This document shows, in pieces, positions 32,390 to 45,012 of a stretch of 45,012 nt of DNA. The position numbers and the translations under genes were made by a program. Below the pieces are notes generated by a model, which saw nothing but the letters and a program-made list of their open reading frames with translations, did not search any database and had not been told where the DNA came from. The DNA lies in IMG/VR virus record IMGVR_UViG_3300027906_000035, positions 1 to 45,012 of that record; one strand, written 5' to 3'. Position 1 is the stretch's first letter. Every line of letters begins with the position of its first letter. Source of the DNA: a virus.

Positions 32390-32440
32390 AGGATTCTTTT
32401 TGTTAAAATTATAACTTTTTTTTACAAATACCAAAAGTTA

Positions 32441-32704: not shown

Positions 32705-32712
32705 ATTTTTAA

Positions 32713-33561
32713 TTATAAACCGCAGTGCCCAGAATCACACTCATTAAAATCGTCTTCAAAAAGCTCTCCCTGTAAATTCCATTTCTGAATATCTTCATAC
32801 TTAATTTTATCTATTCCGTTTCGCCAACAGTCGTTTAAATGTTTAATTCCTTCTTTAGATTTAAACCACTCCATTTTATTTGGGTGCCATTCAAATCTTT
32901 TTCTTGCTAATATTAAATTTTGATGAAAGCATCCAACACAATTATTTATCCTTGCAAACCTAACGTTTTTATTTTTCCAGTACTTTTCAATATTATCTTT
33001 AAAAATGCCGTCTTTTATGAGAGGATACGATGGTTTTTGCCACTCTATAATACCCCATTTATTTCTAGTTTTTCTCTTGCCAACAATAGCTTTCATTTCT
33101 AACAATCCATTTTTATTTAGTTTATCGTTCATATTGGCAGCTCTTCTTGTTTCATTGGCTCTAAACCCTATCCTCATTTCTACTGGCGTATTTATTTTTT
33201 TTCTCCACCACTCAAATATTGGTTCTAATTTTAACTGTGTGGTACAATATCTTCTTGTTACGTTCGGTAAACTGCCCGCACTGTCTAAAACCTTATCAAA
33301 TGTTTTTCCCGTAACCCAAGATATTTTTCTACCTATATGTTGTTCTAAGTCAAGCATTGTATAAATAATTATATCATCTTCTGCGGTGGCAATAAATGGT
33401 GCTTGTATTCTGTCCTCTACTTCTTGTATTATCTTTTTATCAGGAAATCTAGATTCTTCGTGTTCTATCCTCACTAAAGCAAATACATCATAGTCTGCCG
33501 GATAGTTTGCGGCTATATACGATGAGGTTTTTCCTCCAGATAAACTATTAATTTTTTTCAT
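32713..33561 (-). CDS. PAPS reductase/DndC-family PP-loop ATPase
   Basis: 282 aa. The ATP-binding PP-loop is plain: NSLSGGKTSS (S8-G9-G10-K11-T12-S13). Further family features are RRYCTTQLKLEP with C106, R-I-G-F-R-A-N-E (the LGIRADE-like strand of PAPS reductase relatives), and N-N-C-V-G-C-F-H with C208 and C211. The C-terminus adds C275 and C280 in CDSGHC. Known: this superfamily activates substrates with ATP for sulfur transfer; DndC uses four cysteines for an iron-sulfur cluster in DNA phosphorothioation. Phage copies are common but their substrate is mostly unknown. No DndA, D or E partner is in the window. It shares one base with the primase-helicase gene (TAATG), so it is co-expressed with replication. 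Confidence 0.75.
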   Translation of the reverse strand: MKKINSLSGGKTSSYIAANYPADYDVFALVRIEHEESRFPDKKIIQEVEDRIQAPFIATAEDDIIIYTMLDLEQHIGRKISWVTGKTFDKVLDSAGSLPNVTRRYCTTQLKLEPIFEWWRKKINTPVEMRIGFRANETRRAANMNDKLNKNGLLEMKAIVGKRKTRNKWGIIEWQKPSYPLIKDGIFKDNIEKYWKNKNVRFARINNCVGCFHQNLILARKRFEWHPNKMEWFKSKEGIKHLNDCWRNGIDKIKYEDIQKWNLQGELFEDDFNECDSGHCGL

Positions 33562-35354
33562 TAAAAAGGTAATTTATCAATATCAAAAGCTTGATGCGGT
33601 GTCATGTTTTTTTCAGGCTCCTGTTCCTCTCTATCAAAAACAAATGATGGAGGATTGTGCCCGGTGTAATATCTTCCTGATGGTATGTGATAATTAAACA
33701 ATTCTCTTTGTTGCATCTCTCCTTGAAACTTCATTTTTACTTTATGTGTGCAAAATTCAACCTGATTCTTTTCTATAAATTCATCACCCTCCTGTACCTG
33801 ATCAAAAAATCTATAAATAGAAAACCCATCATGAGCCTGGTTTCTAAAGTCAGCCGACCCTGAGATGTCATAAAGGGTTGGTTTTTCATACACTTGTGCT
33901 TCATTCTTCTTCATTTTTGTCGGATGTGCTATCAAAAATATAATAACATTGTTCATTTGTGCAAACATTGTTAATTGAGTTAAAACTCTTTTAATCCTTG
34001 ATAATTCTGCATCTTTGTTACTATCGAAATCCAATTTGTTAAATGCATCAATCACAAATATGTCTACCCCATAAATAAACATTTGTTCTTTAAACTTTTC
34101 CATCAACCAATTCCATGTAGGAAACTTGCCATCTTCTGAGCAGGTGGTATAAAGTCTTTCTTGTGCCCAATCCTTATACCTCTGTATTTCTGCTTTAGAT
34201 ATTCTTGGTAGACCAGCATTATCAATAAAAAAGTTCTTGCCAAAAAACTTTTCTATGAATGTTGTTTGATGAAGAGCCATTGGGTGGTGTTCGGGAGAAA
34301 AAAAGCTTGCCTTCATGTTATAATCTTTCATGATATTCATGACGTACCACTCAACAAAGTTTGACTTACCATGAGATGGTATCCCGGTAGCCACAACTAA
34401 GTGGCCTCTCATTACAGAGAATATGTTTTTAAGATTTCCAAAGCAGGGGTGTTTAGGATATATTGTAGAAGGCAGTCCATTTTCATGAAGATCCATAATA
34501 TCATCTATCATGTCATCAACAGTAAATGTTCCACTAGCGGGGTATTTTTTTGATGCGTTTATAGAGGATCTTAAAACATCTTCACCCTCAATCAGATCTC
34601 CGTTTGCATCTTTGTTTTTAAAAAGGACCCTCTCACACCGATACCTTCCTAATCTTTGAGCAATCTTTTCAGATACATACTCACCCTTATCATCATTGTC
34701 TGTACATATAAAAAATTTATCTACATCTTGTAGGTATTTTTCACAGTTAATCCAAAAGTCATCATTGTCATTGGCTCCGTTTGGTATGCTAATTGTGTTT
34801 TCATAACCACACTGATGCATAGCTAAAACATCGAACTCACCCTCAACTATATAAACTTCTTTCTGACCAACTGCTGCGTTCACATTATAAAAGATAGGCT
34901 TTGTTTGTGCTGTCTGAGTAAAGTGTTTTCCTCCTGATCTATATTTTTTATTAACTAGAGTGTCGCCTTCAAAGTAATTGAAAACAATATTATTCATCTT
35001 TTCTCCAGCTTGGGGCTGAAAGTATACCTCCTCTGAAACCTTTAGATGCTTTAGGGTCCCCTGTCTAATTCCCCTGGACTCACACCATTTTACGATTCCA
35101 TCAGATAAGTCTGTATAGTTTCTCCATGTCTGCTCAGGAAGTTTATAATCTCTTACAATGCTTTCATTAAGATTTTCTCTTATAGAAATAACATCACAGT
35201 GATGACACTTAGCAACTCCCTTGGATATATTTACACTTAAACTCCTGTCTCTTTTATTTTTTCTTTCAGGCCCACATGAAGGACAAACAACTTTATGTTG
35301 ACCTGAGGTTTTACCTTTCAAGTCAATCGAGGACCACTCTATTGTTTGTATCAT
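33561..35354 (-). CDS. Bifunctional DNA primase-helicase (Twinkle/T7 gp4 type)
   Basis: 597 aa. Zinc-binding primase domain: C24-P-S-C27 and C50-H-H-C53. TOPRIM: VYIVEGEFDVLAMH with E171 and D175, then FFICTDNDDKGE with D219, D221 and D222. RecA-like helicase core from about residue 300: Walker A V-A-T-G-I-P-S-H-G-K330-S331 and Walker B DIFVIDAFN with D436; SPEHHP gives the loop after strand 2; QFCTHKVKMKFQG-type C-terminal strands end the fold. It would prime and unwind DNA at the fork. No DNA polymerase gene is in the window, so one lies outside or the host enzyme is used. The start overlaps the winged-helix gene by ATGA. The length matches the family. Confidence 0.92.
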   Translation of the reverse strand: MIQTIEWSSIDLKGKTSGQHKVVCPSCGPERKNKRDRSLSVNISKGVAKCHHCDVISIRENLNESIVRDYKLPEQTWRNYTDLSDGIVKWCESRGIRQGTLKHLKVSEEVYFQPQAGEKMNNIVFNYFEGDTLVNKKYRSGGKHFTQTAQTKPIFYNVNAAVGQKEVYIVEGEFDVLAMHQCGYENTISIPNGANDNDDFWINCEKYLQDVDKFFICTDNDDKGEYVSEKIAQRLGRYRCERVLFKNKDANGDLIEGEDVLRSSINASKKYPASGTFTVDDMIDDIMDLHENGLPSTIYPKHPCFGNLKNIFSVMRGHLVVATGIPSHGKSNFVEWYVMNIMKDYNMKASFFSPEHHPMALHQTTFIEKFFGKNFFIDNAGLPRISKAEIQRYKDWAQERLYTTCSEDGKFPTWNWLMEKFKEQMFIYGVDIFVIDAFNKLDFDSNKDAELSRIKRVLTQLTMFAQMNNVIIFLIAHPTKMKKNEAQVYEKPTLYDISGSADFRNQAHDGFSIYRFFDQVQEGDEFIEKNQVEFCTHKVKMKFQGEMQQRELFNYHIPSGRYYTGHNPPSFVFDREEQEPEKNMTPHQAFDIDKLPF

Positions 35355-36019
35355 AGTGCTGGTTTTTTATATTGATATATTTGCTTTCCATTCATTCCTT
35401 TTCCTGTAGACTTCTTGTACCACCTTATAAAATACTGCTTGTATTCTTTTTCTGAAATGTGAGTGTATCCATTAACAGAAGCGTGGTTGGTAAAGTTTTC
35501 TATGAAATCTTTAAACTTAACGTCATTAAGAAGAAAATTCCTTTTAACTGCCTCAACCCATTTAACATTTGAAAGACAAATTTCTTGAACCCTATCTATT
35601 TCTATTAAATTATTATCATTATTATCATTATTATCATTATTGTTTGGTGTTAGAAGGGTGTTAGAAGGGTGTTGATAGGGTGTTGATATGGTGTTATTCT
35701 TTGCATCCCTACCCTGGTAATCATTATATTTTACAAGGGTTACAAGCAACCATCTGCGTGTTGGATTTGTGACAACTTCTTTGGTGTCTTTGAGTTTTTT
35801 TATTGCGGTTCTCACCTCTTGCCTTGATAACTTTAAATCATGCGCAATACTATCGTAAGATGTAGCTAAAGATCCCCTAGGAATTATCTTCCCCTCGAAC
35901 TTGTTGTCTTTGTGGTTGGCCTTCAGCAAACAATGAACGAAGACTCGAAAAACGTTCGGGTTTTTGTACCATTGCCAGGTCAGTATTTTTCTGTTTAATT
36001 GTATAAATGAACTTTTCAT
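35351..36019 (-). CDS. Winged-helix replication initiator/helicase-loader-like protein
   Basis: 222 aa. N-terminal domain: FIQLNRKILTWQWYKNPNVF, VFVHCLLKANHKDNKFEGK, IPRGSLATSYDSIAHDLKLS and RQEVRTAIKKLK. This is the well-known start of phage replisome-organiser/DnaD-like proteins (R-x-x-x-x-W-x-W-[YF]-x-[DN], a winged helix that binds origin DNA). A low-complexity Asn/Asp linker encoded by a 9-base repeat follows, then a C-terminal domain (KRNFLLNDVKFKDFIENFTN, EYKQYFIRWYKK) resembling helicase-loader tails. The first 143 bases overlap, in another frame, the end of the DnaA-like gene upstream. It ends in ATGA overlap with the primase-helicase, its likely partner. Confidence 0.8.
   Translation of the reverse strand: MKSSFIQLNRKILTWQWYKNPNVFRVFVHCLLKANHKDNKFEGKIIPRGSLATSYDSIAHDLKLSRQEVRTAIKKLKDTKEVVTNPTRRWLLVTLVKYNDYQGRDAKNNTISTPYQHPSNTLLTPNNNDNNDNNDNNLIEIDRVQEICLSNVKWVEAVKRNFLLNDVKFKDFIENFTNHASVNGYTHISEKEYKQYFIRWYKKSTGKGMNGKQIYQYKKPAL
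35609..35642 (-). repeat. 9-base microsatellite encoding an Asn/Asp linker
   Basis: Three full copies and a partial of ATTATTATC (plus-strand sense) lie inside the winged-helix gene and encode an NNNDNNDNNDNN-type linker. The unit is a multiple of three, so copy-number change would alter linker length without breaking the frame. Confidence 0.8.
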
Positions 36020-36482
36020 CTGTTATAAATCTTTCTCTTAATAGGGTTGGTAGTTTATCTATGATTTCCATGAGATAGTTGGCATTGTAAACCAGCTCTG
36101 CATTCATGGCTTTTAATTCATCAAAATCATTAGGAAGTGTTTCAACTAAGTGAAATCCTAACTCTTCTTTTGCGTGTTCTCTATAAGATATCTCTTCAAT
36201 CTTCAAAAAAGAGTCAATAAGGGTTTTGTCTTTATGAAAATTTAAAAGATTATCCATTGTCTTGACTGCGTGAAGAACCGTTGCATGATCTCTATTAAAC
36301 ATTTTACCAACCTTATCAGAGGATATGTAGGTAAATTTTCTCATACAATACATTGTAAGCTGTCTAATTTCAACGTAAGGCCTTTTCCTTGTGTGTTTAT
36401 TTTCAAGCGGATTATAACCCGTCACACTCTTGACCGCATCTATTATTATGTAAGGGTCTATTTTTTGTTTTTTTAGTTTCAT
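35877..36482 (-). CDS. Stand-alone DnaA domain IV-like origin-binding protein
   Basis: 201 aa. Residues about 8-80 match the C-terminal DNA-binding domain of DnaA: YIIIDAVKSVTGYNP, then RKRPYVEIRQLTMYCMRKF, SSDKVGKMFN and the signature R64-D-H-A-T-V-L-H-A72 (DnaA consensus RDHTTV-x-HA), which reads DnaA boxes. The AAA+ ATPase part of DnaA is absent. The rest is helical (ELVYNANYLMEIIDKLP) and unrecognised. Known: phage and plasmid genomes sometimes carry domain IV alone as initiator or as a decoy for host DnaA. The last 143 bases overlap the winged-helix gene and yield a Gln/Arg-rich tail that looks non-conserved. A near-consensus DnaA box with iterons lies at 44739-44799. Confidence 0.8.
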   Translation of the reverse strand: MKLKKQKIDPYIIIDAVKSVTGYNPLENKHTRKRPYVEIRQLTMYCMRKFTYISSDKVGKMFNRDHATVLHAVKTMDNLLNFHKDKTLIDSFLKIEEISYREHAKEELGFHLVETLPNDFDELKAMNAELVYNANYLMEIIDKLPTLLRERFITDEKFIYTIKQKNTDLAMVQKPERFSSLRSLFAEGQPQRQQVRGEDNS

Positions 36483-36538
36483 TTTAATTAAATTATATAA
36501 GGGAGCCGGAGCCCCCTTATGAATAGTGATGATAGTGA

Positions 36539-36793
36539 TTAGAATGGTAAATCACTTGTTTGTGCTTGACTTTCCTGCTTTGGAGCAGTTTTATTGCCAT
36601 CCTTGTTGTAGGGCTCACCAAACTTTAGCGAAAGATATGTCGTTCCGCTTTTTGTTTGGCTAATCCATCCGGCAGCATCAAACTCTTTGCCGCCCACAGT
36701 AGCACTTCCTTTGTAGTCAGGCTGAGTATCTTTTTCTTTATACTCATTTTTGAAAAGACTCCCTGTAAAGTCTTTGTGTTTAAAATCACTCAT
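36539..36793 (-). CDS. Small SSB-like protein with acidic-aromatic tail
   Basis: 84 aa. The body FTGSLFKNEYKEKDTQPDYK, GSATVGGKEFDAAGWISQTK and GTTYLSLKFGEPYN has the alternating strands of a compact OB-type fold or of DUF736-like proteins. The final residues are TSDLPF, which mimics the DD[IL]PF tail of bacterial SSB used to recruit partner proteins. Context supports single-strand DNA binding: it lies four bases from the exonuclease and two genes from the ERF annealing protein. No direct SSB family match is visible, so the role is inferred. Confidence 0.6.
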   Translation of the reverse strand: MSDFKHKDFTGSLFKNEYKEKDTQPDYKGSATVGGKEFDAAGWISQTKSGTTYLSLKFGEPYNKDGNKTAPKQESQAQTSDLPF

Positions 36794-36797
36794 AATA

Positions 36798-37514
36798 TTA
36801 AATTATAGTTCTAGGTATTCGACCGCCTATATTTACAGACAAGTCGGTTAAATAATCCCTGCATATCTCTATGCGCTCATACAATCGCTGAACATCCCCA
36901 TCGTTGTACTCGATGTGAAACTCCTTTACTCTAAGCTCCTCTGGGATGTCAGCGTACTGAAGTCTTTCGTAGACCTCACTCTCTAATTCATCAGGGACCT
37001 CTATCATTCCCAAGTTCCATGATAATCTTCTAACCTCATCCTGTATTAACAAGGGAGGAGTATCCACTAAACAGTAAGCTACAGTTGCTTCTTTTCTTTC
37101 TGCAAGAGCCATATAGCCTTGAAGTTGCCAATAATAATGTTTGTTAGGCAAGTCTTCTTCGTGCATTGGAAAGGTGGTGAAATCCCAAGAGGACTTAATA
37201 TCTATAAGGGTTTTGTCTACAATATCAGGTGTTCCACATATAAAATTGTTCTCATAAAACTTTTCATTTTTTTGAAAATGAATAGACTTGACCCTTCCGT
37301 ATATTTCTATAGACTCATCCTCAACCTGTTTGCCTTTGTCTAGATACTTAGATTGGATGTCAGTAGTTTTACCAAAGACAACCTCCTTATGAATTTCCTG
37401 CAGATATTTTTTAGTTGTGGCTGAAAGTAAATCCTTTTTATTTCTTGGACTCACCATTAGTTTTCCTAAAGAGGAACATCTAAACAAATAGTCTTCAAAG
37501 TTTAAAAATTTCAT
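36798..37514 (-). CDS. YqaJ/lambda-exonuclease-type recombination nuclease
   Basis: 238 aa. PD-(D/E)XK motifs in order: CSSLGKLM at the start (R-x-S-S/G helix typical of YqaJ), E65/E67 in DKGKQVEDESIEIY, G94-T-P-D97, D105-I-K107 and the following YYWQLQGYMAL with Q130/Q132 and Y134, the RecB/YqaJ motif IV. The enzyme should resect double-stranded ends 5' to 3' to give single strands for the ERF annealing protein encoded ten bases upstream. Together with the SSB-like gene this is a complete phage single-strand annealing recombination module. The length fits the family. Confidence 0.85.
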   Translation of the reverse strand: MKFLNFEDYLFRCSSLGKLMVSPRNKKDLLSATTKKYLQEIHKEVVFGKTTDIQSKYLDKGKQVEDESIEIYGRVKSIHFQKNEKFYENNFICGTPDIVDKTLIDIKSSWDFTTFPMHEEDLPNKHYYWQLQGYMALAERKEATVAYCLVDTPPLLIQDEVRRLSWNLGMIEVPDELESEVYERLQYADIPEELRVKEFHIEYNDGDVQRLYERIEICRDYLTDLSVNIGGRIPRTII

Positions 37515-37524
37515 AGTTTTTTAT

Positions 37525-37986
37525 TTAGAGTCCAAAATCAGAATTATCATTTGTTTGAGATTGTACCTTGTGATACTTGCCCGACTGCTGAAGAGATCCG
37601 TTTCTTTTTGTTGTTTTGTTTGCATCGTCATCTTCTGCCTCTAAAAGCAGTAGAGACTGAAGGCCATACCTCCTGTAGTAGGTAATTTCAGACCCTTTCT
37701 CTTGTGGCTGTTGTCTTATAATCTTCAAGCCCCTCATGTCTTCAGTATTTTTGAAGTTAGGGAAGATTTCTCCGGTGTCGTTGTCCATAACAACAGTAAC
37801 AACATGGTCATCAACGATTGGTTGAAGAACAGTCAACCCTATCTCCTTGCATAAGGGCTTTACTTGCGCAAGGAGCTGGTTGATGTCAGCATAGTTGCTG
37901 TTATAAAATGGATTTTTCTTACTCTTTCTTAGTTTTTCAAGTGAAGCTATAAGTGTAGCTACCTTCTGTGCTAATTTTGGTGTCAT
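37525..37986 (-). CDS. erf: ERF-family single-strand DNA annealing protein
   Basis: 153 aa. Clear ERF features: NPFYNSNYADINQLLAQVKP (residues 25-44), CKEIGLTVLQP, TYYRRYGLQSLLLLEAEDDD (103-121) and AN. It promotes annealing of complementary single strands in homologous recombination, which in phages helps genome circularisation, concatemer formation and repair. The C-terminal 30 residues are polar and end in NDNSDFGL, an acidic tail like that of SSB-binding proteins. It overlaps the upstream hypothetical gene by 50 bases and precedes the exonuclease. Confidence 0.88.
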   Translation of the reverse strand: MTPKLAQKVATLIASLEKLRKSKKNPFYNSNYADINQLLAQVKPLCKEIGLTVLQPIVDDHVVTVVMDNDTGEIFPNFKNTEDMRGLKIIRQQPQEKGSEITYYRRYGLQSLLLLEAEDDDANKTTKRNGSLQQSGKYHKVQSQTNDNSDFGL

Positions 37987-38374
37987 AGGATTCTTTAATT
38001 TGATTAAGTGTTATTAGATTTAATTTTTCATACATCGCTACTGTGTCAAGTAGGTCTGTTACATGCTTTCTATCCGTTAAACCATCGCTTTGTTTTGATT
38101 TTTTTAAAGCGTTAGTATATTTACACGCATTAGCAAGCATTTTCAACCCATTTTCATAGGCGTACCACACCGCATAGGTGGGCATAATATTATAAATGTC
38201 AGATCTAGTACCAAACATCTCTAGTCTCTTGCCTATTAACTCTAGCTTAAGTCCTGGAGCGAAAATAGCTTTACTTCCATCCATAAATTCGTGTACTAAA
38301 AAGTCTAAAGAAGCCTGGCTCCATATTGACTCTAACATATACTTTCTTTTCTCTAAATTTAAAATATCTTCCAT
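37937..38374 (-). CDS. Hypothetical protein in recombination module, 145 aa
   Basis: Not recognised. Helical, with ESIWSQASLDFLVHEFMDGS, LKLELIGKRLEMFGTRSDIY and TYAVWYAYENGLKMLANACK. The 50-base overlap with the ERF gene and the four-base spacing upstream show it belongs to the same operon. It has no catalytic motif that I can see. A partner or modulator of recombination is a guess from position only. Confidence 0.55.
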   Translation of the reverse strand: MEDILNLEKRKYMLESIWSQASLDFLVHEFMDGSKAIFAPGLKLELIGKRLEMFGTRSDIYNIMPTYAVWYAYENGLKMLANACKYTNALKKSKQSDGLTDRKHVTDLLDTVAMYEKLNLITLNQIKESYDTKISTEGSYTYSFT

Positions 38375-38378
38375 TTAG

Positions 38379-38594
38379 TTATATTTGTTTTAAGTATTCT
38401 CTTCTTTTAAGAAGAAGGATTCCTCTGTTTTCAATCTTTGTTTGCATTTCTTCTCTCGTTATCTTGTGAAGTGCCCTGCTTAGGGCTAGCTGAGGTATCG
38501 AGCTGTGAAGTTCCATCATTTGGTCCACCACGAAATTTTTGTGTTTTCTCAGCTTTCGAGATTCTTTGATCATTGTGCTTATTTTTTGTAACAT
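38379..38594 (-). CDS. Hypothetical basic helical protein, 71 aa
   Basis: ISTMIKESRKLRKHKNFVVD, QMMELHSSIPQLALSRALHK and REEMQTKIENRGILLLKRRE give a helical, basic and protein-like sequence. It overlaps the upstream gene by 164 bases in another frame. Compared with the low-complexity end of that gene, this frame looks the more natural of the two in the overlap. Four bases separate its stop from the next ATG. Function unknown. Confidence 0.5.
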   Translation of the reverse strand: MLQKISTMIKESRKLRKHKNFVVDQMMELHSSIPQLALSRALHKITREEMQTKIENRGILLLKRREYLKQI

Positions 38595-38718
38595 TGTTTT
38601 TTCTTTTAGTTTCTAAATATTCCTCCTCCATCCAATGAAGGGCAACTCTATTTGATTCTTGGTACACATTTGCCCAGCTATCAAACAGTTCTTCTACTAA
38701 TGATTTTGATTTTGGCAT
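38431..38718 (-). CDS. Hypothetical protein, 95 aa, with low-complexity tail
   Basis: Starts at the ATG at 38718 (MPKSKSLVEELFDSWANVYQ), behind an AAATATAATAAC leader; the open frame extends 48 bases upstream only to a TTG. The first 40 residues are helical and acidic (ALHWMEEEYLETKRK); the remainder is polar and disordered (DGTSQLDTSASPKQGTSQDN) and lies in the long overlap with the 71-aa gene. It may really end earlier in function, or the two genes share sequence. Function unknown. Confidence 0.45.
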   Translation of the reverse strand: MPKSKSLVEELFDSWANVYQESNRVALHWMEEEYLETKRKNNVTKNKHNDQRISKAEKTQKFRGGPNDGTSQLDTSASPKQGTSQDNERRNANKD

Positions 38719-38888
38719 GTTATTATATTTAAGTTTTTTAGTAGTTCTTTGGTCTTGCTCCACCAAAGGTGATATTTATATTTAATATTAAGTTTTTTTT
38801 GGTTGAGCGTTGTGTATCGGATAACACCATCATGCCCCTTGTGGGACATGACGATGATACCGGTTGGAAGTCTTTTAAACTTCTGCAT
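38697..38888 (-). CDS. Hypothetical protein, 63 aa
   Basis: MQKFKRLPTGIIVMSHKGHD then GVIRYTTLNQKKLNIKYKYH and LWWSKTKELLKNLNI. Basic, with a beta-hairpin-like start. It overlaps its upstream neighbour by 14 bases and the next gene start by 22 bases. The composition is reasonable for a small soluble protein but no family is recognised, and the last residues probably reflect the leader of the next gene. Confidence 0.4.
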   Translation of the reverse strand: MQKFKRLPTGIIVMSHKGHDGVIRYTTLNQKKLNIKYKYHLWWSKTKELLKNLNIITCQNQNH

Positions 38889-39246
38889 TCAAGGCTTTTA
38901 ACTCTTCCCTTAATGCATCTGCATATGCACCCTTGAGTGCAATGATAAAACCAGTGTTAAATGCGTTTAAAGGCATCTCTACGCGTAAATTTCCCCAATA
39001 ATACACAACTTTTCCGTTAAGTACTGAAATGTTTTTAGGTACTATTTGAACGGTTTCCTTTTCTTCATCTATAACACTTGGTTTGGAAGGATTCAAATGT
39101 CTTTTAATTGTTTGTTCAGTAAGATGCTTGCCAAACTTTTGAAAAAACATTTTCTTGATTGTTTCAACATCAGTTTCCTTAATGTTGCCGAGGAATTCTT
39201 TGCCCTGAAAGGACATTCTACCTCTGTGGTGTTTAATTTTAGTCAT
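38875..39246 (-). CDS. Hypothetical protein, 123 aa, possible regulator
   Basis: The ATG at 39246 is used; the open frame continues 54 bases upstream but only to a TTG within inverted repeats. Sequence: MTKIKHHRGRMSFQGKEFLG, ETIKKMFFQKFGKHLTEQTI, KRHLNPSKPS, then a beta part (VVYYWGNLRVEMPLNAFNTG) and a helix ending ADALREELKALNAEV. The FGKHLTEQTIKRHL segment could be a helix-turn-helix. It is the first gene after a 70-base gap containing two mutually exclusive stem structures, so it may be regulated separately. Function unknown. Confidence 0.5.
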   Translation of the reverse strand: MTKIKHHRGRMSFQGKEFLGNIKETDVETIKKMFFQKFGKHLTEQTIKRHLNPSKPSVIDEEKETVQIVPKNISVLNGKVVYYWGNLRVEMPLNAFNTGFIIALKGAYADALREELKALNAEV

Positions 39247-39267
39247 AATAAATAGAGTTTTAATTTC

Positions 39268-39300
39268 CGCTAATTTAAGTTGGTTTAGCGAATTAACCAA
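39268..39300 (-). promoter_or_regulatory. Two competing inverted repeats in a gene leader
   Basis: CGCTAA (39268-39273) pairs with TTAGCG (39285-39290), and TTGGTT (39280-39285) pairs with AACCAA (39295-39300). The two stems share sequence and cannot form together. They lie in the 70-base leader of the gene starting at 39246, one of the few real gaps in the leftward operon. This could be an operator or an RNA switch; the stems are short, so chance is not excluded. Confidence 0.3.
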
Positions 39301-39316
39301 ATATTGTTAACAACTT

Positions 39317-39817
39317 TTACCATGAAGAAGAATAATAATATTCATCTTCCGGAGTTTTCTTCAAAGAATTTTCGATAGCTTCCTTCGTTTCTCTTAGTGT
39401 TTCAAAGTAATACTCATCATAATCCTGTGATCCAAAAAAGAATCCCTCAGAAGCAGGCAACTTCTTCTCTGCTAGCTTTTGAATCTTCTCAAGCTGTTCC
39501 GATGTCATTTTGTGGGGCATAAAAAAATTGTATTCTTTAGTGATGCTATCAATTGTTTCACACAAAGATTTAAGTTGGCCTCTGTCAATGTAATACTCTC
39601 CGCAGTCATCGTTTCCATCTTGTACGTTCTCTACAAACCATCTGTGAATCCAGTTTGCTTTTCTCCAATAATGAACATCAAAGGTAATAGTATTTATTTT
39701 ATTGAGGTCGATTGGCTCTCCTCCAACAAATGCTATGCCTGAAAAAAACTTTTCTTTTGGGTTGTGGTCCCAATTCTTAACGTATTTTTTACGTTGTAAG
39801 TACATATCTAATCCCAT
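39317..39817 (-). CDS. Conserved phage/bacterial protein of unknown function (MGLDMYL family)
   Basis: 166 aa. The start MGLDMYLQRKKYVKNW, then HYWRKANWIHRWFVENVQDG, DDCGEYYIDRGQLKSL, and near the end GFFFGSQDYDEYYFETLRET. I recognise this widespread uncharacterised family (MGLDMYL, W-R-K-A-N-x-IH-x-W-F, G-x-DDC, GFFFGS-x-x-YDE-x-Y) found in phages and bacteria; some database entries mislabel it as phosphoglycerate kinase. The role is unknown. It is the best-conserved-looking protein in this stretch of small genes. Confidence 0.75.
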   Translation of the reverse strand: MGLDMYLQRKKYVKNWDHNPKEKFFSGIAFVGGEPIDLNKINTITFDVHYWRKANWIHRWFVENVQDGNDDCGEYYIDRGQLKSLCETIDSITKEYNFFMPHKMTSEQLEKIQKLAEKKLPASEGFFFGSQDYDEYYFETLRETKEAIENSLKKTPEDEYYYSSSW

Positions 39818-39819
39818 AT

Positions 39820-40038
39820 CTATAATATTGTATTGTTATCTATTTCTAAAAGAATTTTGTAGTCATTAGCTACTTTCCTTAAAAGTATTTCAACATAATA
39901 CCTTTCATCTGTTTTCATATCTTCAAGCATGTCCATTACATGAAAATACTCGATAGCATCCAACACTTCTTTTTTAGTTACGGAGTGTCGTGTAGGTTTT
40001 TTTGGTTGGGGTTTGTTTAATTGTATTACTTTACTCAT
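39820..40038 (-). CDS. Hypothetical protein, 72 aa
   Basis: MSKVIQLNKPQPKKPTRHSV followed by one helical region (KKEVLDAIEYFHVMDMLEDM, YYVEILLRKVANDYKILLE). The proline/lysine-rich start suggests a flexible basic tail on a helical domain. It overlaps the upstream gene by eight bases and is two bases from the next. No family recognised. Confidence 0.5.
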   Translation of the reverse strand: MSKVIQLNKPQPKKPTRHSVTKKEVLDAIEYFHVMDMLEDMKTDERYYVEILLRKVANDYKILLEIDNNTIL

Positions 40039-40270
40039 GATTTAAATAGTTTAAAATTTGTTCATATACTTTTGGAAAATCTCGTGATAATACATTTACG
40101 ATCTCCTTGTCTGTGTGATCAAAAGACTGTTCGATGTCTACTAAATGCCTAAACAATAGGTCAAGCCCTCTGTCAACTCCTTTTTTTTCGGATCTATCGT
40201 GGCTGTCTTCCACCCACTCATCATCTGACTTGATATCAGTTATGATGTTTTTAATTTTAATAAGGTCCAT
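40031..40270 (-). CDS. Hypothetical acidic protein, 79 aa
   Basis: Helical and acidic: IKNIITDIKSDDEWVEDSHD, GVDRGLDLLFRHLVDIEQSF, EIVNVLSRDFPKVYEQILNY. Its acidity contrasts with the basic neighbour it overlaps by eight bases, so the two could form a pair, but that is speculation. No known family. Confidence 0.5.
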   Translation of the reverse strand: MDLIKIKNIITDIKSDDEWVEDSHDRSEKKGVDRGLDLLFRHLVDIEQSFDHTDKEIVNVLSRDFPKVYEQILNYLNHE

Positions 40271-40291
40271 TTAATTAAATTTTAATTGTTA

Positions 40292-40885
40292 TTAATATCT
40301 TTCCCGGATGCATTCCCAAATGATGGCCTGATATTCATAGCCTTTGAATCCCACCTTTCTCGCCTCATCTAATAATATACTAGACAATTCATCGTACCTG
40401 CTGGGGGTTAGCCCAGACACTACGGTCTTACCAAACATAGCCCTTAACATCCAAACATCTATTGTAACATATTCTTCATTTAATGTCGCAATATTTTGGA
40501 TGAAAGCATGAGTCTTCCTGCTTGATTTGTTTATTGTTAATTTACCCTGTGCAATTGCAAAGGCCTTGTATTTGTTTGTGTTGAATGTACATACCCTTAC
40601 ATCTTCCGGAGGGGTCTTTTCATGGACTGCCTCAAGTACTCGGCCTGTGTCAAACACATTTCTTTCCCATTTGTTTCGTGGAGATAGTGCAGATAAAACA
40701 CCTGCTACTGTGTAGGTATCAAACTGTCCGTTCCATCTTTCGGATTTTGATTTTACTATTTCGTGAACCTCAGCATACCAGGCCTTGCCACTATAAATGT
40801 GTTTCTCTGTTGCCAAGTCAAAATAATTTCTGAGGTTTTTTCTTACCTTGTTTTTCATGTAAGGGGTAATCTTCTTTAATTTCAT
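40292..40885 (-). CDS. HhH-GPD/DNA glycosylase-like conserved phage protein
   Basis: 197 aa. Core motifs: TVAGVLSALSPRNKWERNVF (residues about 58-77), FNTNKYKAFAIAQG, KTHAFIQNIATL, VTIDVWMLRAMFG and a C-terminal GFKGYEYQAIIWE. I know this series from actinophage and other phage proteins of unknown function. The all-helical layout, with A-x-LSP-x-x-x-W-x-x-N, a GK-x-x-x-F helix-turn and a [VI]-D-x-W/H-x-x-R-x strand-helix, resembles the helix-hairpin-helix glycosylase fold, in which the aspartate (here in T-I-D-V-W) is catalytic. Fold assignment is inference. A role in processing or tolerating modified bases would fit the early arm. Confidence 0.6.
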   Translation of the reverse strand: MKLKKITPYMKNKVRKNLRNYFDLATEKHIYSGKAWYAEVHEIVKSKSERWNGQFDTYTVAGVLSALSPRNKWERNVFDTGRVLEAVHEKTPPEDVRVCTFNTNKYKAFAIAQGKLTINKSSRKTHAFIQNIATLNEEYVTIDVWMLRAMFGKTVVSGLTPSRYDELSSILLDEARKVGFKGYEYQAIIWECIRERY

Positions 40886-40896
40886 TTGATTTTATT

Positions 40897-41157
40897 TTAA
40901 GTTATGTAAAAGGGTTGTTCTATTATCTCAAAGTCTACCTTGTTGTGCAGTTCTTTAGCAATACGCAAGGCATCTTCAAATATATTTACGCCATAGATGT
41001 TCCGCCTTGATTTAGCATCTATGATCGTTAGCTCGTTTATTTTTATGTCTATAAGACACCTAACAATAAACGTTCTGTCATTCCTTACCATTGTAAAGGA
41101 TAACCTGTAATCTGTTGGGGTAATTTTTGCATCTCTAAATGTAGTTTTTAGTTCCAT
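40897..41157 (-). CDS. Hypothetical protein, 86 aa
   Basis: Beta-rich start (LKTTFRDAKITPTDYRLSFT, RTFIVRCLIDIKINELTIID) and a helix (IFEDALRIAKELHNKVDFEI). Soluble. It overlaps the upstream gene by ten bases. Not recognised. Confidence 0.55.
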   Translation of the reverse strand: MELKTTFRDAKITPTDYRLSFTMVRNDRTFIVRCLIDIKINELTIIDAKSRRNIYGVNIFEDALRIAKELHNKVDFEIIEQPFYIT

Positions 41158-41477
41158 TGGTCGTTATTTTCGTTAAAATCATGTTCTAATTCAAGTTCCC
41201 ATAGGTTGTTGTCATCATTATAAAAGTCATAAGCATTGTCTAATGATCCATTGGTTCCTATTCTAATTTCCTCTCTTGATGGTATGTGTTGGCCATAGGG
41301 GTTGGTAAATGACTGATTGGGTAGGAAGTACATACCACATTCTAAGCCTCTCACAGCCTCTCTGCCGACCGATCCCTCCATTGACCATACATAACCATTA
41401 TCAATCCATTCTTGCATCATCTTGATGTGTGGGAAGTCTTGTTGTCGTTCTCTAATAAATTTTTCTTTTACTTTCAT
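41148..41477 (-). CDS. Hypothetical protein, 109 aa
   Basis: MKVKEKFIRERQQDFPHIKM, EWIDNGYVWSMEGSVGREAV, GLECGMYFLPNQSFTNPYGQ and an acidic end (NNLWELELEHDFNENNDQWN). The mid part (WSMEGSVGR-x-A, CGMYFLP) looks like a compact conserved domain, but I cannot name it. Preceded by the AAAATAAAATG leader shared by neighbouring genes. Confidence 0.55.
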   Translation of the reverse strand: MKVKEKFIRERQQDFPHIKMMQEWIDNGYVWSMEGSVGREAVRGLECGMYFLPNQSFTNPYGQHIPSREEIRIGTNGSLDNAYDFYNDDNNLWELELEHDFNENNDQWN

Positions 41478-41489
41478 TTTATTTCAGTT

Positions 41490-41849
41490 TTAAATTTCTG
41501 CTTCAAAACAACAGTAGTCAAGATCAGGATTATCATCAAAGAAGTCCTTAACTTGCTTTCCTAAACAATAGTCAGCATACTCTGATAAATCTTCATTTGT
41601 AACATTGTATTGTTTCTGAATCTCATTATTGTAACCATTGTTTTCTTCAAACATTTTGTTTACCCTTTCAATTGAACCCTTATCAATTGAATCTAGTTCC
41701 TTGACTATATCATCATACTTATCTCTACTGATTTCATAATCAATATAGCTTGGTTCCACTTCTTCTGCACCAAATCTTGTGTGTGCATCGCTTGATTGTA
41801 CTGCGAACATAAACTTTCCGTCTACATCGCCATTATAATATCTTCCCAT
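41490..41849 (-). CDS. Conserved phage protein, MGRYYNGD family
   Basis: 119 aa. The start MGRYYNGDVDGKFMFAVQSS followed by D-A-x-x-RFG and E-P-x-Y-[IV]-[DN]-Y is a pattern I recognise from uncharacterised phage proteins (MGRYY-[NT]-GD-I-x-GKF-[WM]-F-[AG]-VQSS). The second half is acidic and helical and ends with DDNPDLDYCCFEAEI. The role is unknown. It has the AATAAAATAAAATG leader common to this block. Confidence 0.65.
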   Translation of the reverse strand: MGRYYNGDVDGKFMFAVQSSDAHTRFGAEEVEPSYIDYEISRDKYDDIVKELDSIDKGSIERVNKMFEENNGYNNEIQKQYNVTNEDLSEYADYCLGKQVKDFFDDNPDLDYCCFEAEI

Positions 41850-41865
41850 TTTATTTTATTTTAAA

Positions 41866-42033
41866 TTAATTTTCATAGTGTTCTTTATACAAGTTTGCTC
41901 GATAACTTATTTCAGCATTTGATATATGAATAGTTGTATCATTGTTTACTTCCACATATAAATCTTCATCTGTAATGTATGCTGAAATGTCATTCATTTC
42001 AAACCATTTTAAAGCTAATTCTATTTCTTTCAT
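41866..42033 (-). CDS. Hypothetical protein, 55 aa
   Basis: A 55-codon frame: MKEIELALKWFEMNDISAYI, TDEDLYVEVNNDTTIHISNA, EISYRANLYKEHYEN. A helix followed by two or three strands, acidic. The ATG lies in AAAATGAAAG, the same A/T leader as its neighbours, one base after the upstream stop, and 16 bases separate its stop from the next ATG. It fills an otherwise empty 185-base gap. No family recognised. Confidence 0.65.
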   Translation of the reverse strand: MKEIELALKWFEMNDISAYITDEDLYVEVNNDTTIHISNAEISYRANLYKEHYEN

Positions 42034-42034
42034 T

Positions 42035-42277
42035 TTATTTAAAGTTTATAAATTGTTGGTGTATGTACTCTTCAGGATCAGGACAATGTAAATGTACTTC
42101 TGATTTTACTTTACCATCCTCGATGACTTCTGTCATTAGACTTACATCATACCCTGTCGGATCCATGATCGCTATCTCTTTGTTCTTGTTGTCATTGGTA
42201 TACTCCCATACCATATAGCTATCCCCGTTGTAGGAGATAGCTTTTTCAATGACTTTCGTGTTAACTATTGTTTTCAT
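42035..42277 (-). CDS. Hypothetical protein, 80 aa
   Basis: Beta-rich: KAISYNGDSYMVWEYTNDNK, NKEIAIMDPTGYDVSLMTEV, then HLHCPDPEEYIHQQFINF. Soluble and acidic, one Cys. The order hairpin-hairpin-helix is like that of other proteins in the block. No family recognised. Confidence 0.55.
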   Translation of the reverse strand: MKTIVNTKVIEKAISYNGDSYMVWEYTNDNKNKEIAIMDPTGYDVSLMTEVIEDGKVKSEVHLHCPDPEEYIHQQFINFK

Positions 42278-42295
42278 TTTATTTTATTTATGTTG

Positions 42296-42631
42296 TTATT
42301 CAAAAGTAAGATTGCCAGCATCATCATATACTTGGTCAAGGTATTCATCTTTATCACCATGTTTAAATGGCACAGATGCAATTAAATATACAAATCTATT
42401 AACCCAATGAAATCCTTGAGTTATATACATACCCTCATCTCCTTCGACCATAGTCCAAATAAGATTAGGGTTTTGTTTCTTAACATATTCTAAATCCTCT
42501 CCATAGGTTTCAAAATACATTGGACTGCCTATCACATTGCCCTCCGTTTCTCCTTCCTGATATTCAGGATTCTCGATATGATTATATATCGGTTTATACT
42601 TGTCGTAAAATTTGTCGCTATTTTCTTTCAT
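42296..42631 (-). CDS. Hypothetical protein, 111 aa
   Basis: Acidic, with NHIENPEYQEGETEGNVIGS, YFETYGEDLEYVKKQNPNLI and WTMVEGDEGMYITQGFHWVN RFVYLI (two adjacent segments). The stretch IWTMVEGDEGMYITQGFHWVNR resembles a conserved strand-helix seen in small phage proteins of unknown role. No signal or membrane anchor. Five bases separate it from the upstream gene. Confidence 0.55.
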   Translation of the reverse strand: MKENSDKFYDKYKPIYNHIENPEYQEGETEGNVIGSPMYFETYGEDLEYVKKQNPNLIWTMVEGDEGMYITQGFHWVNRFVYLIASVPFKHGDKDEYLDQVYDDAGNLTFE

Positions 42632-42636
42632 TTTAT

Positions 42637-42903
42637 TTATATGTTATCTAGGGCATAGTCTACTACCTCATCATAATCATATCCCCATTGATCAAGAATC
42701 TCGTAAAGGTTTTTATAATAAAACCTTACTCCCTCTCTCTTTGCTGAATCGTGTAACCAAATTGGATTCTCGCCATCTTCAGCAAATCGCAGTAGGATTG
42801 ACTTATAAACATTTAGTTGGGCATCACCCTCTAATTTTACTTCTATCTCTCTGGTTTCGCAGTCAGATATTACTTTAAAGTTGTTTTTTGTTAGTGTTGT
42901 CAT
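42637..42903 (-). CDS. Hypothetical protein, 88 aa
   Basis: Begins MTTLTKNNFKVISDCETREI, continues with LLRFAEDGENPIWLHDSAKR and ends with EILDQWGYDYDEVVDYALDN. Acidic, strand-then-helix. Its ATG lies 20 bases downstream (leftward) of a long hairpin, so its translation or transcription may be set by that structure. Function unknown. Confidence 0.55.
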   Translation of the reverse strand: MTTLTKNNFKVISDCETREIEVKLEGDAQLNVYKSILLRFAEDGENPIWLHDSAKREGVRFYYKNLYEILDQWGYDYDEVVDYALDNI

Positions 42904-42922
42904 AATTTTAAGATTAGATTAG

Positions 42923-42975
42923 GTTTGGTTTAGAGGAGTGAAAGGGAACAGCTCACCCCTCAGTTCAAACCAAAC
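42923..42975 (-). ncRNA. Long two-part hairpin in the leader of the 42637-42903 gene
   Basis: Outer stem: GTTTGGTTT (42923-42931) pairs perfectly with AAACCAAAC (42967-42975). Inner stem: GAGGAGTGA (42933-42941) faces TCACCCCTC (42953-42961); the single non-Watson-Crick pair is G-U when read leftward and A-C when read rightward, which favours a leftward RNA. An 11-base loop closes it. There is no T tract on either side, so it is more likely a leader structure or processing site than a simple terminator. Confidence 0.55.
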
Positions 42976-42985
42976 AAATTAATAA

Positions 42986-43084
42986 ATGAAAAAAAGTATT
43001 TGTTCCCTATGTGGTACGCAGGAGGAGGAACATGACCCTCACTTCATCTCGAGATTCTATTTACCCGTCGGTAATCCTGCGTAG
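42986..43084 (+). CDS. C2H2-type micro-protein ORF, 32 aa (opposite strand)
   Basis: ATG after AATTAATAA, then MKKSICSLCGTQEEEHDPHF and ISRFYLPVGNPA. C6-x2-C9-x6-H16-x2-H19 is a full set of zinc ligands with unusual close spacing. It is the only rightward candidate gene in the right arm and shares its bases with a cloverleaf-like inverted-repeat structure. Either the protein or the RNA may be the real product. No family recognised; moderate doubt. Confidence 0.35.
   Translation: MKKSICSLCGTQEEEHDPHFISRFYLPVGNPA
43015..43083 (-). ncRNA. Cloverleaf-like structured element, 69 bases
   Basis: TACGCAGG (43015-43022) and CCTGCGTA (43076-43083) form a perfect 8-bp closing stem. Inside are three small hairpins: GAGG/CCTC (43025-43040), the perfect palindrome ATCTCGAGAT (43046-43055), and TTACC/GGTAA with a four-base loop (43061-43074). 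The outline is tRNA-like in size, but there is no T-loop sequence, D-loop GG or CCA, so it is not a tRNA. It sits in a 188-base gap in an operon whose other gaps are mostly under 25 bases. The coding strand is uncertain. Confidence 0.4.
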
Positions 43085-43091
43085 ATTGTAA

Positions 43092-43337
43092 TTATTCTTT
43101 GCATATTTCGTTTACTTCGTCACATGTAGAGCATCCAAAACCATCCCAATCTCTTTCTGTTAAGTCTTGAATTCTCTCTATTTTCATCTCGATTTCTTCA
43201 TCATCTTCAAACATATCCATAAGCATAGATACAGTTGTCATTACCAGCTTGAACTCTCCAACATCTCGGATGTCGAGTTTCTCAATTATCTTAAGGGCTA
43301 ATTGTTCTTTGTTGTTTGTGATAGGTATTGTTTGCAT
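43092..43337 (-). CDS. Hypothetical acidic protein, 81 aa
   Basis: Helical: NKEQLALKIIEKLDIRDVGE, FKLVMTTVSMLMDMFEDDEE, IERIQDLTERDWDGFGCSTC. The C-terminal end holds C-x2-C plus one more Cys (CSTCDEVNEIC). Acidic overall. Eight bases separate its ATG from the upstream gene. Not recognised. Confidence 0.55.
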   Translation of the reverse strand: MQTIPITNNKEQLALKIIEKLDIRDVGEFKLVMTTVSMLMDMFEDDEEIEMKIERIQDLTERDWDGFGCSTCDEVNEICKE

Positions 43338-43344
43338 GATTTGT

Positions 43345-43626
43345 TTATTTTATTGATATAAATTCTTCGTTTGTTTCACTTGTCCATGAGTCAGAGGTTA
43401 GGACATCAAAATCTCCTAATTGACCCTTCGATATTATATTAATACCTCTTTTTGTTAGGTAGTCAATCGCTATCTCTTGAACATTATTGAAAGCATACCC
43501 ATAAGGGATTGTTACTCTATCAGTTTTTTGATATCTGCTTTCTGTTATACTCACTCTCGTTCCTTTGTGTTTGGTTGGTGGTAAATATTTGACTTTAAAG
43601 ATTCTTTGGTTCGGTACTGTTTTCAT
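43345..43626 (-). CDS. Hypothetical protein, 93 aa
   Basis: The ATG at 43626 follows TTTAATATTTTAATT, the usual leader; an in-frame ATG 30 bases upstream lies inside a hairpin and is less likely. Sequence: MKTVPNQRIFKVKYLPPTKH, KGTRVSITESRYQKTDRVTI, AIDYLTKRGINIISKGQLGD, ending TSETNEEFISIK. The strand-rich FKVKYLPPT-x-x-KG-x-R[VI] start followed by an [AI]-x-x-[YF]-L-x-x-[RH]-G helix is common in short phage and bacterial proteins of unknown role. It is the first gene after the 430-base structured island. Confidence 0.6.
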   Translation of the reverse strand: MKTVPNQRIFKVKYLPPTKHKGTRVSITESRYQKTDRVTIPYGYAFNNVQEIAIDYLTKRGINIISKGQLGDFDVLTSDSWTSETNEEFISIK

Positions 43627-43900
43627 AATTAAAATATTAAAGATTAGATACCCCATGAGATATTCTCTGCGCTCATGAGGTTATTGTTGTTTTAAAATGT
43701 TGCTTTTGTATCTCTATTCTGTCCACTGACCACTGGACTCGCTAAGGTGTTACAACCAAATAGCTTCGGCTTTACAAGGTGCGGAGATTCGCTACCTATT
43801 AAAATGTGCATACTACCGCCTTACACATAAGCGGATTACTCTTGTCAATTATCGAGTGATTCAAAATGTCAATGAACGACTGCGATACACTTTGCTGGGG

Positions 43901-43956
43901 TGGGTCGTTTGACCTCTTCCCGTTGGCATTGTTGGTGCTGGGTCGTTTGACCTCTT
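43901..43956. repeat. Two exact 18-base direct repeats, each a small hairpin
   Basis: TGGGTCGTTTGACCTCTT occurs at 43901-43918 and again at 43939-43956, 38 bases apart. Each copy contains GGTC-GTTT-GACC, a four-base stem with a four-base loop, or an imperfect palindrome for a dimeric binding protein. Direct repeats of a palindrome are typical of operators, iterons, or repeated RNA hairpins. Confidence 0.7.
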
Positions 43957-43980
43957 GCACACTGTACCCGTTAGGCGTTT

Positions 43981-44002
43981 AAAGTCCTCCTAATGGACTT
44001 TT
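43981..44002 (+). terminator. Perfect 7-bp hairpin with short T run
   Basis: AAAGTCC (43981-43987) pairs with GGACTTT (43995-44001) around a seven-base loop, followed by TTTGTT when read rightward. It could end a rightward RNA made from the island; read leftward the tail is AAACGCC and it would not terminate well. The stem is weak, so moderate confidence only. Confidence 0.4.
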
Positions 44003-44005
44003 GTT

Positions 44006-44044
44006 GGGTGGGGGGAATCGAACCCCCATAAACACCATGCACCC
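44006..44044 (-). other. tRNA T-arm-like module (tRNA 3' fragment or att-like site)
   Basis: Read leftward, GGGGG-TTCGATT-CCCCC (44027-44011) is a perfect tRNA T-arm: five pairs, seven-base loop with the invariant TTCGA. It is enclosed by a second stem, GGGTG (44044-44040) with CACCC (44010-44006), like a shortened acceptor. No D or anticodon arm can be found in the adjoining bases, where a coding gene ends at 44057. Options are a tRNA or tmRNA 3' remnant, an attachment site copied from a host tRNA, or a tRNA mimic. No integrase is present in the window. Confidence 0.5.
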
Positions 44045-44056
44045 GATTGAAAGCTT

Positions 44057-44452
44057 TTAAGCTGCTTTTTTGGTTGACTTTTTAACCCTTTTGGGGGTTG
44101 TTTCAACGTTCCACTCGATGCCCTTTATGTCTTTAGCTTTACGCCCAACAACATTAAGAACATGCCAAAACGACCACTTCGTGCGGGGCGTTCCATCCTT
44201 GTTGACCTTCTCCTTGTCTTTGGTTAGACTTAAAATGCTCTTGGCATTCATTAAGCGATTAAGTGAAATTTTGACCTCGTGCCTTTTCTCGGTTTCCTCA
44301 ACGTATGCCCTCAAGGTTTCTAATCCTTCATTGTTTGCATACCTAATGACACCGGACAGACTAAAAACGGACTCTTTAAAATTGTCGTTCGCTTTACTCT
44401 TAGCGGTTAAAAGGCTTGATTTCTTGCGTGGTTGTGTAGTAACTTTTTTCAT
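44057..44452 (-). CDS. Basic hypothetical protein, first gene of the leftward arm
   Basis: 131 aa, strongly basic at both ends (MKKVTTQPRKKSSLLTAKSK and KRVKKSTKKAA). Middle: NFKESVFSLSGVIRYANNEG, LETLRAYVEETEKRHEVKIS, and TPRTKWSFWHVLNVVGRKAK. The Lys-rich ends and the small helical core suggest a DNA-binding or nucleoid-associated protein, but I do not recognise a family. Codon use is more GC-rich (TTG, CTC, ACC, GCC) than in the neighbours. As the promoter-proximal gene of the early arm it may be the first phage protein made after entry. It ends just before the T-arm-like module. Confidence 0.6.
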   Translation of the reverse strand: MKKVTTQPRKKSSLLTAKSKANDNFKESVFSLSGVIRYANNEGLETLRAYVEETEKRHEVKISLNRLMNAKSILSLTKDKEKVNKDGTPRTKWSFWHVLNVVGRKAKDIKGIEWNVETTPKRVKKSTKKAA

Positions 44453-45012
44453 AATATTAAATTTTAAGTTTTTGAATTTGATACAATGATAAAGAGAGGA
44501 TTTTTAACGATTGCAAAAAATGTAGAAATGTAAATTTTTTTATGTTTTTTGTTTTATTTCTTTATTTATTTGGATTTGTCAATTTTATTTATTATAGGCA
44601 TTTATCAAGGTTGGGACTATTTGAAAAGCTGGTTTAATTGGCTGGTAATGTTGGGCAGTTGTAATTTTTCCAGCTGGACTCATTTAGGGGGTGTTTGTTT
44701 TGGTGTTTGTAATCTTAAAACGTTGGTTGGTTGCTGTCTCTGGATAACTTCCACAGCTTACCCGATTAAACGCACCAAAAGTGTGCAAAAGTCAAAAGTT
44801 TTTCGCCTACTGTGGTTTTTTCGTTGGGGGGTGGGGTTTGTAGTTGGGTTTTCTGTAGGATGTCGGGTGTTGTATTATATATATAGCCCAAATACTACAC
44901 ATTTCTAACGGTGGCATAAAAAGTGGACATTAACTATCTACTATTATAGGTATACAGTTATTTGTCACCTTTTCCCGCCACATCTTTTTGTAGTTACATT
45001 TATTATCTATAT
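44453..45012. other. 560-base intergenic region without a convincing gene
   Basis: The rightward strand is T/G-rich and poor in C, with long homopolymer-like T stretches between 44520 and 44600. A 119-codon rightward frame (44549-44908) is open but its Trp/Cys/Phe/Gly-heavy product and T/G bias look like a by-product of composition. Leftward, a possible promoter for the 44057-44452 gene is TATCATTG (one mismatch to TAnnTTTG, 44495-44502 region) with TTG about 22 bases upstream. The likely origin signals are listed separately. The last 110 bases show nothing I can name. Confidence 0.5.
44738..44800. other. Candidate replication origin: DnaA-box-like site plus CAAAAGT iterons
   Basis: TCTGGATAA (44739-44747) is the reverse complement of TTATCCAGA, one base from the DnaA box TTATCCACA, and is part of the inverted repeat TGGA-TAACT-TCCA with CACAG next to it. 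Thirty bases on, CAAAAGT occurs three times (44776-44782, 44786-44792, 44793-44799). The phage encodes a DnaA domain IV protein and a winged-helix initiator. A box plus short direct repeats in a non-coding, strand-biased region at the head of the replication arm is what an origin looks like, but chance matches are possible in so short a sequence. Confidence 0.4.

Follow-up and report, generated by a model that had tools for sequence, protein, structure and literature searches.

Two large structured RNAs of phages, GOLLD and ROOL, occur near tRNA islands and have no known function; GOLLD has a conserved 3′ part and a less conserved 5′ part, and ROOL has no known protein partner (PMC12286853). 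Here we analyse an IMG/VR virus record that was taken whole (45,012 bases, hereafter “the window”) together with the related viruses L003, L006 and L034 and cultured Cellulophaga phages. The putative RNA described below resembles GOLLD in being a large phage RNA with a conserved 3′ part and a variable 5′ part, and it resembles ROOL in being large and structured; as with both, tRNA genes lie nearby (here, in Callevirus genomes). However, at about 400 to 600 nt it is shorter than GOLLD, which often exceeds 800 nt, and it matches neither model. When the GOLLD model (RF02032) was run against six records, including the window, L034, phi38:1 and Calle_1, nothing scored above the cut-off of 150, and the best score was a 4.8-bit chance match elsewhere in the L034 genome. 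Lax Rfam scans (E up to 5-10) of the window, L003, L034 and phi38:1 gave sub-threshold matches only, with ROOL absent. The Rfam scan proposed by the first-pass annotation was likewise negative; Rfam 15 at gathering threshold found only two tRNAs, both in L016, among the window and related loci. By these searches the RNA belongs to a further family, one with no Rfam match, outside all catalogued RNA families tested.

Other described systems share individual features with the locus. In phage lambda, N acts on nut/boxB, in which boxB carries a GNRA-like pentaloop, and in HK022 the put RNA alone modifies RNA polymerase. The window RNA shares with these a place at the head of an operon, a conserved GNRAA-pentaloop hairpin and an adjacent small basic protein, but it is far larger and multi-domain, and no homology to N was found. 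Elements of the mascRNA type also combine an acceptor-like helix and a T-arm, with no anticodon arm, inside a longer transcript, although the helix here spans only 5-6 bp and no CCA is present. The tmRNA and permuted tmRNA models (RF00023, RF04321) include a T-arm hairpin of the same type, but only 17 T-arm positions match (13.9 bits against a cut-off of 47).

Several identities were rejected. For the window ARAGORN reports 0 tmRNA or tRNA genes, and the tmRNA model matches in its T-arm alone; a permuted tmRNA is contradicted by acceptor strands in the normal order, and a tRNA by the lack of any ARAGORN or Rfam tRNA match. A group I intron and RNase P RNA have no Rfam support. An attP site, meaning a phage attachment site that copies the 3′ terminus of a tRNA or tmRNA gene of the host, was dismissed because the outer helix around the T-arm covaries between relatives, as a copied tRNA end would not. 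Moreover, the proteins searched (part of the set) include no integrase, and the T-arm with its flank has no exact match in viral contigs. Antisense pairing to 16S through GGGGTATCTAAT, which we take to resemble the complement of the 790 loop, was discarded since the segment is not conserved (GAGAGCTAAC in L034, AGTACCTAAG in phi38:1).

The gap and its predicted RNA

In its terminase and a head structural protein the window is similar to Flavobacterium elemo phages, Cellulophaga phages and MW202828, and on these likenesses we assign it to a tailed phage of Bacteroidota. Its genes run rightward until about 29 kb and leftward thereafter. Near the head of the leftward operon lies a gap of 418 bp (43639-44056). 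This bears out the first-pass description of a gap in a packed operon, where other gaps are mostly under 25 bp (no more than 21 bp among the remaining listed leftward genes from 37.9 kb on, bar one of 188 bp at 42904-43091). Positions 43861-44040, a stretch of 180 bases, were said to be about half G+C in an AT-rich genome, and the values are indeed 50.6% for the stretch and 35.9% for the whole window; only 2 of 792 sliding windows of 180 nt within 29000-45012 have a G+C fraction of at least 0.50. This G+C-rich island is thus real, but the predicted RNA reaches beyond it. The inverted repeats reported for the gap are present and include an 18-base hairpin module in two copies. A C(UUCG)G tetraloop and a terminator-like hairpin also exist as described, but in those forms they lie on the plus strand only, not on the strand of the RNA, and the UUCG hairpin is not kept in L034. 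The features, all on the minus strand, are as follows.

44057-44452, minus: 131-aa ORF flanking the gap, ending at 44057; candidate partner protein, directly upstream of the RNA (pI 10.2, K+R 24%)
43642..44044 (approximate limits), minus: predicted structured non-coding RNA of about 400 nt, from the acceptor-like helix through the 3′ hairpin and CUAA; structured homologues with covariation in L003, L006, L034, phi38:1 and Calle_1
44040..44044, minus: acceptor-like helix, 5′ strand GGGUG, pairing with CACCC at 44006-44010
44011..44027, minus: T-arm-like hairpin GGGGG-UUCGAUU-CCCCC with a T-loop; GGGGG-UGCAAUU-CCCCC at the same place in L003, L006 and L034
44006..44010, minus: acceptor-like helix, 3′ strand CACCC, followed in the sequence by AACA, with no CCA
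43981..44001, minus: hairpin AAAGUCC-AUUAGGA-GGACUUU, seen in the sequence; its plus-strand reading is the terminator-like hairpin
43901-43918 and 43939-43956, minus: two copies of the 18-base hairpin module AAGAGGTCAAACGACCCA (AAGA-GGUC-AAAC-GACC-CA); expected number 0.00
43816..43834, minus: hairpin CCGC/GCGG; CCCC/GGGG at the equivalent place in L034, a compensatory swap
43777..43797, minus: helix AGGU-A-GCG/CGC-ACCU with a bulged A; AGAU-A-GCC/GGC-AUCU in L034, two compensatory changes
43721..43738, minus: hairpin GUCCA/UGGAC; pairing kept with other letters in relatives
43650..43681, minus: conserved 3′ hairpin with a 10-bp stem and the 12-nt loop CGCAGAGAAUAU, then AUCUAA; supported by model matches and covariation
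43345-43638, minus: 97-aa ORF flanking the gap, starting at 43638

The minus strand of the whole gap folds at -118.5 kcal/mol (z -3.4, with 0 of 100 shuffles as good), and the plus strand reaches z -2.9. Local folding windows of 120 nt depart only slightly from shuffles (z about 0 to -2); folding energy alone is therefore no proof, and comparison with relatives is needed. Read on the strand codirectional with the operon, the listed helices comprise 181 Watson-Crick pairs, 9 G-U pairs and 0 A-C mismatches, a contrast that favours the minus strand supportively rather than as independent proof, because the helices were chosen for pairing on that strand. Only the minus strand carries T-loops like the one listed above. 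A plus-strand RNA is disfavoured both by the G-U and A-C counts and by the loss of the UUCG hairpin in L034. Taking sequence and comparison together, the gap almost certainly holds the gene of a structured, conserved RNA that is read from the minus strand, codirectional with the operon.

The 188-nt intergenic stretch at 42904-43091 is itself about 97-98% identical to L003/L006, within a surrounding alignment of about 88%. It contains two long hairpins on the minus strand (z -2.9 and -2.7) and, on the plus strand at 42986-43084, a 32-codon ORF, MKKSICSLCGTQEEEHDPHFISRFYLPVGNPA, that is CxxC/HNH-like, and may be a second candidate RNA or a tiny gene. Elsewhere, among the phage structural genes, a 2506-aa ORF (12375-19895) includes a long repeat block of D-x-D-x-D-G units, thrombospondin type 3-like and calcium-binding in kind.

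Conservation of the RNA among related phages

A DUF7178 gene 3 kb away led to the close relatives L002-L007 (91% protein identity). Three related virus types (L003/L002, L006/L005 and L034) have homologues of the RNA in the equivalent position, as do cultured Callevirus phages. The block between window positions 44510 and 43694 cannot be aligned with L003/L006, which at the equivalent place have a different basic ORF of 124 aa and then about 570 nt of non-coding sequence; this begins with a T-loop hairpin, and its final ~66 nt are 82% identical to the window. L034, found by way of the L003 ORF (ORF identity 65-68%), forms a bridge: it has an ORF and a 5′ RNA domain like those of L003, together with a 3′ domain of the window type that aligns over about 150-230 nt. 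In L034 and L003/L006, hairpins of differing sequence come after the T-arm, as does the one at 43981..44001 in the window.

Model R1, which was built from the window and L034 only, without phi38:1, matches L003/L006 at the syntenic place (E 1.8e-5) and, among named phages, Calle_1 (E 1.9e-7) and Cellulophaga phage phi38:1 (NC_021796.1, 32938-33063, minus strand, E 1.6e-7). Model R2, built with phi38:1, recovers the 3′ hairpin in that phage at E 3e-13. Phages phi40:1, Calle_2 and Calle_3 carry the same region as phi38:1 and Calle_1. In Callevirus the match depends largely on the 3′ hairpin. Four virus types of this family conserve the RNA in place, strand and pairing, and for the 3′ part Callevirus does so too. 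Searches of MW202828, two elemo phages, Gundel_1, Panino, phi14:2 and the DUF7178 contigs of greater distance gave no convincing homologue, and a single pattern run against bacterial genomes was without a match. A match in L037 was set aside as a chance hit in a coding region, and weak R1 and R2 matches (18 bits) in phi18:3 and phi46:3 were traced to coding genes where checked.

Paired changes are seen in the 3′ hairpin, which in the window reads CCUCAUGAG-CGCAGAGAAUAU-CUCAUGGGG, in L003 CCUCACGAG-UGUAGAAAAUAU-CUCGUGGGG, in L034 CUCUUGGAUA-CGUAGCGAAUAU-UAUUCAAGAG, in phi38:1 CUACACAGA-CGUAGAGAAUAU-UCUGUGUAG and in Calle_1 CUGCACAGA-CGUGGAGAACAU-UCUGUGCAG. Across these five sequences, each of the 10 stem pairs has changes in both of its partners, a result that 0 of 500 shuffles match. 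For the hairpin overall, both-side changes occur at 11 of 13 pairs and 98.5% of cells are paired (0 of 500 shuffles; covariation score 0.97, compared with 0.37 when shuffled). The 12-nt loop has the consensus YGYRGNRAAYAU and contains one covarying pair (A-U to G-C) that closes a GNRAA pentaloop. A descriptor of the hairpin retrieves only these five distinct sequences from the 1.66 Mb of DNA searched. The aligned 3′ domains of the window and L034 have 27 proposed pairs. Apart from one gap cell, all are standard in both sequences; both-side changes number 12, and the share of paired cells is 100%. None of 500 shuffles equals this, and slid versions pair at 33-52%. These counts were taken from A11 and A17, because the inner helices of A14, a model-fitted alignment, are partly gaps or forced in L003, L006, phi38:1 and Calle_1. 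The first-pass proposal of a phage-encoded structured RNA thus holds up, in that relatives keep the RNA and pair changes preserve its stems; the regulatory, host-targeting, defence and counter-defence roles suggested there are candidates.

Beyond the 3′ hairpin, the equivalents of the hairpin at 43721..43738 are GAAA/UUUC in L034, GUCGCC/GGCGAC in L003/L006 and CAAA/UUUG in phi38:1. The 18-base module, which lies within the G+C-rich part, occurs only in the RNA of the window. Total size is about 400 nt in the window and about 600 in L034 and phi38:1. Judged by these alignments, the RNA has a modular middle, with variable 5′ and middle domains and a 3′ hairpin that is kept.

The 5′ element and the neighbouring basic protein

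An outer helix of 5-6 bp, with a linker of 9-17 nt, surrounds the T-loop hairpin (GGGGGTTCGATTCCCCC in the window, GGGGGTGCAATTCCCCC in L003/L006). Its letters differ among the four viruses and still pair: GGGUG/CACCC in the window, AAGUAG/CUACUU in L003, GGUAGA/UCUACU in L006 and UCGAAU/AUUCGA in L034. In the clade of the window, this element resembles a tRNA acceptor stem and T-arm that lack an anticodon arm. The acceptor-like helix is weaker evidence than the 3′ hairpin, because its register is not identical in L003 and L006; a descriptor for the acceptor and T-arm gave no other match among the loci searched. Hairpins of the form GGGGG-UGCAAUU-CCCCC also precede unrelated phage genes or sit in permuted tmRNAs. 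Because the T-loop hairpin is so common in viral DNA, it is the outer helix that is meaningful, and the T-arm alone is not diagnostic of tRNA mimicry. In Callevirus, a search for the acceptor-like helix yielded only a T-loop-like hairpin, GGUAAC-UUAGAAU-GUUACC.

The exact 17-mer GGGGGTGCAATTCCCCC turns up in 76 different viral contexts, frequently a short way ahead of an ATG (one group has ATGGCAACAGCAAAA). These contexts include L044, L046, L050, L051, L058, L059, L063, L066, L071, L080, L081, L089 and L099. Two more GGGGTGCAAT motifs follow the T-arm in L034 (3480-3530) and resemble degenerate T-loop hairpins in tandem.

Next to the RNA, each of these phages encodes a small and strongly basic protein (pI 9.8-10.5, K+R 22-24%), which lies upstream of it in the window, L003, L006 and L034 and downstream in phi38:1 and Calle_1. 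The 131-aa protein of the window has no Pfam or PHROG match, and no significant similarity links it to its counterparts in L003-type or Callevirus phages, or these two to each other. AlphaFold models of the window and L003-type proteins (pLDDT 43) were too poor for use. Each of the three has a short aromatic-S-x-aromatic stretch and then a basic tail, an observation that serves as a lead only.

In Callevirus, the order is a promoter-like TACATTTG on the 5′ side of the RNA, the RNA, the basic protein and then the operon; TACATTTG resembles the promoter consensus (-7) of Bacteroidota. Five annotated tRNA genes of Calle_1 lie some 2 kb upstream on the opposite strand, and a tRNA-Glu lies downstream. 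Upstream of the RNA in phi38:1 (L162, about 3000-3350), a promoter-like stretch with TACATTTGTAG is duplicated together with the next ~50 nt; each copy is followed by a boxA-like GTTCTTT, and a similar AAGTTCTTTG occurs in L003.

Candidate functions of the RNA

Our leading reading, which we hold tentatively, is that the RNA is the RNA part of a phage ribonucleoprotein, processed from the operon transcript, acting in trans and broadly of the GOLLD or ROOL kind. It is favoured because of the size, the modular build, the tRNA-like 5′ element and the GOLLD/ROOL-like architecture. An RNA of about 400 nt would be made leftward within the operon transcript, and its 5′ acceptor/T-arm element may be seen as a tRNA-like end by RNase P and/or RNase Z, whose cleavage there would free the RNA from the upstream message. 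The adjacent small basic protein could then bind the conserved 3′ hairpin together with the 5′ and middle domains, which vary, and the complex so formed would work in trans at an early stage of infection. Against the trans reading we count the missing CCA, the lack of significant similarity among the adjacent basic proteins and that of a strong intrinsic terminator after the 3′ hairpin; given this last point, processing would be required to yield a separate RNA.

The chief alternative is a leader that acts in cis on the leftward operon, through which RNA polymerase would be modified to read through terminators, with or without the basic protein. This is possible but rather doubtful. The RNA lies at or near the operon head in both phage groups, the 3′ hairpin and the next gene have no strong terminator between them, and the GNRAA pentaloop with its covarying closing pair is reminiscent of boxB. 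Yet 400-600 nt and many domains far exceed what nut or put needs, the 5′ half is swapped wholesale among close relatives, the RNA of the window has no clear boxA, and no search ties the basic proteins to N. We consider it improbable that the sequence works instead as an untranslated region, either stabilising or processing the operon mRNA or governing how the next gene is translated. In the window, about 12 nt do separate the end of the 3′ hairpin from the AUG of the 97-aa gene, and T-loop hairpins recur just ahead of phage genes, but the hairpin is kept while the next gene differs among the window, L003, L034 and phi38:1, and the distance to the next start codon ranges from about 12 to about 90 nt.

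Somewhat more improbable still is an RNA decoy or inhibitor that uses tRNA mimicry against a host RNA enzyme or defence, such as RNase P, tRNA-targeting nucleases or the ribosome. The T-arm and acceptor-like helix in the clade of the window would fit such a role, as would the turnover of the 5′ domain among close relatives, which is expected in arms races; the acceptor-like element, however, was not found in Callevirus. That the spacer merely holds leftover or chance hairpins and no functional RNA is very unlikely: the modest local folding z-scores would agree with it, but it is already contradicted by the conserved paired structure, with covariation over several virus types and a two-sequence model that recovers a cultured phage.

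A bolder reading, which we regard as possible but rather doubtful, is a new phage RNA family with a dedicated ribonucleoprotein that includes a co-encoded basic protein. Its tRNA-like 5′ module would serve for excision or for engaging host RNA machinery, and its 5′ modules would be exchanged together with the protein gene.

Because the RNA occurs in cultured phages, namely phi38:1 and phi40:1 of Cellulophaga baltica and Calle_1-3 of Cellulophaga sp., its expression, ends, partners and need are directly testable. GOLLD and ROOL are large structured phage RNAs whose function is not known, and the RNA of the window adds another family. It would also illustrate how an RNA evolves by modules, with a 5′ module exchanged along with the adjacent protein gene and the 3′ hairpin retained.
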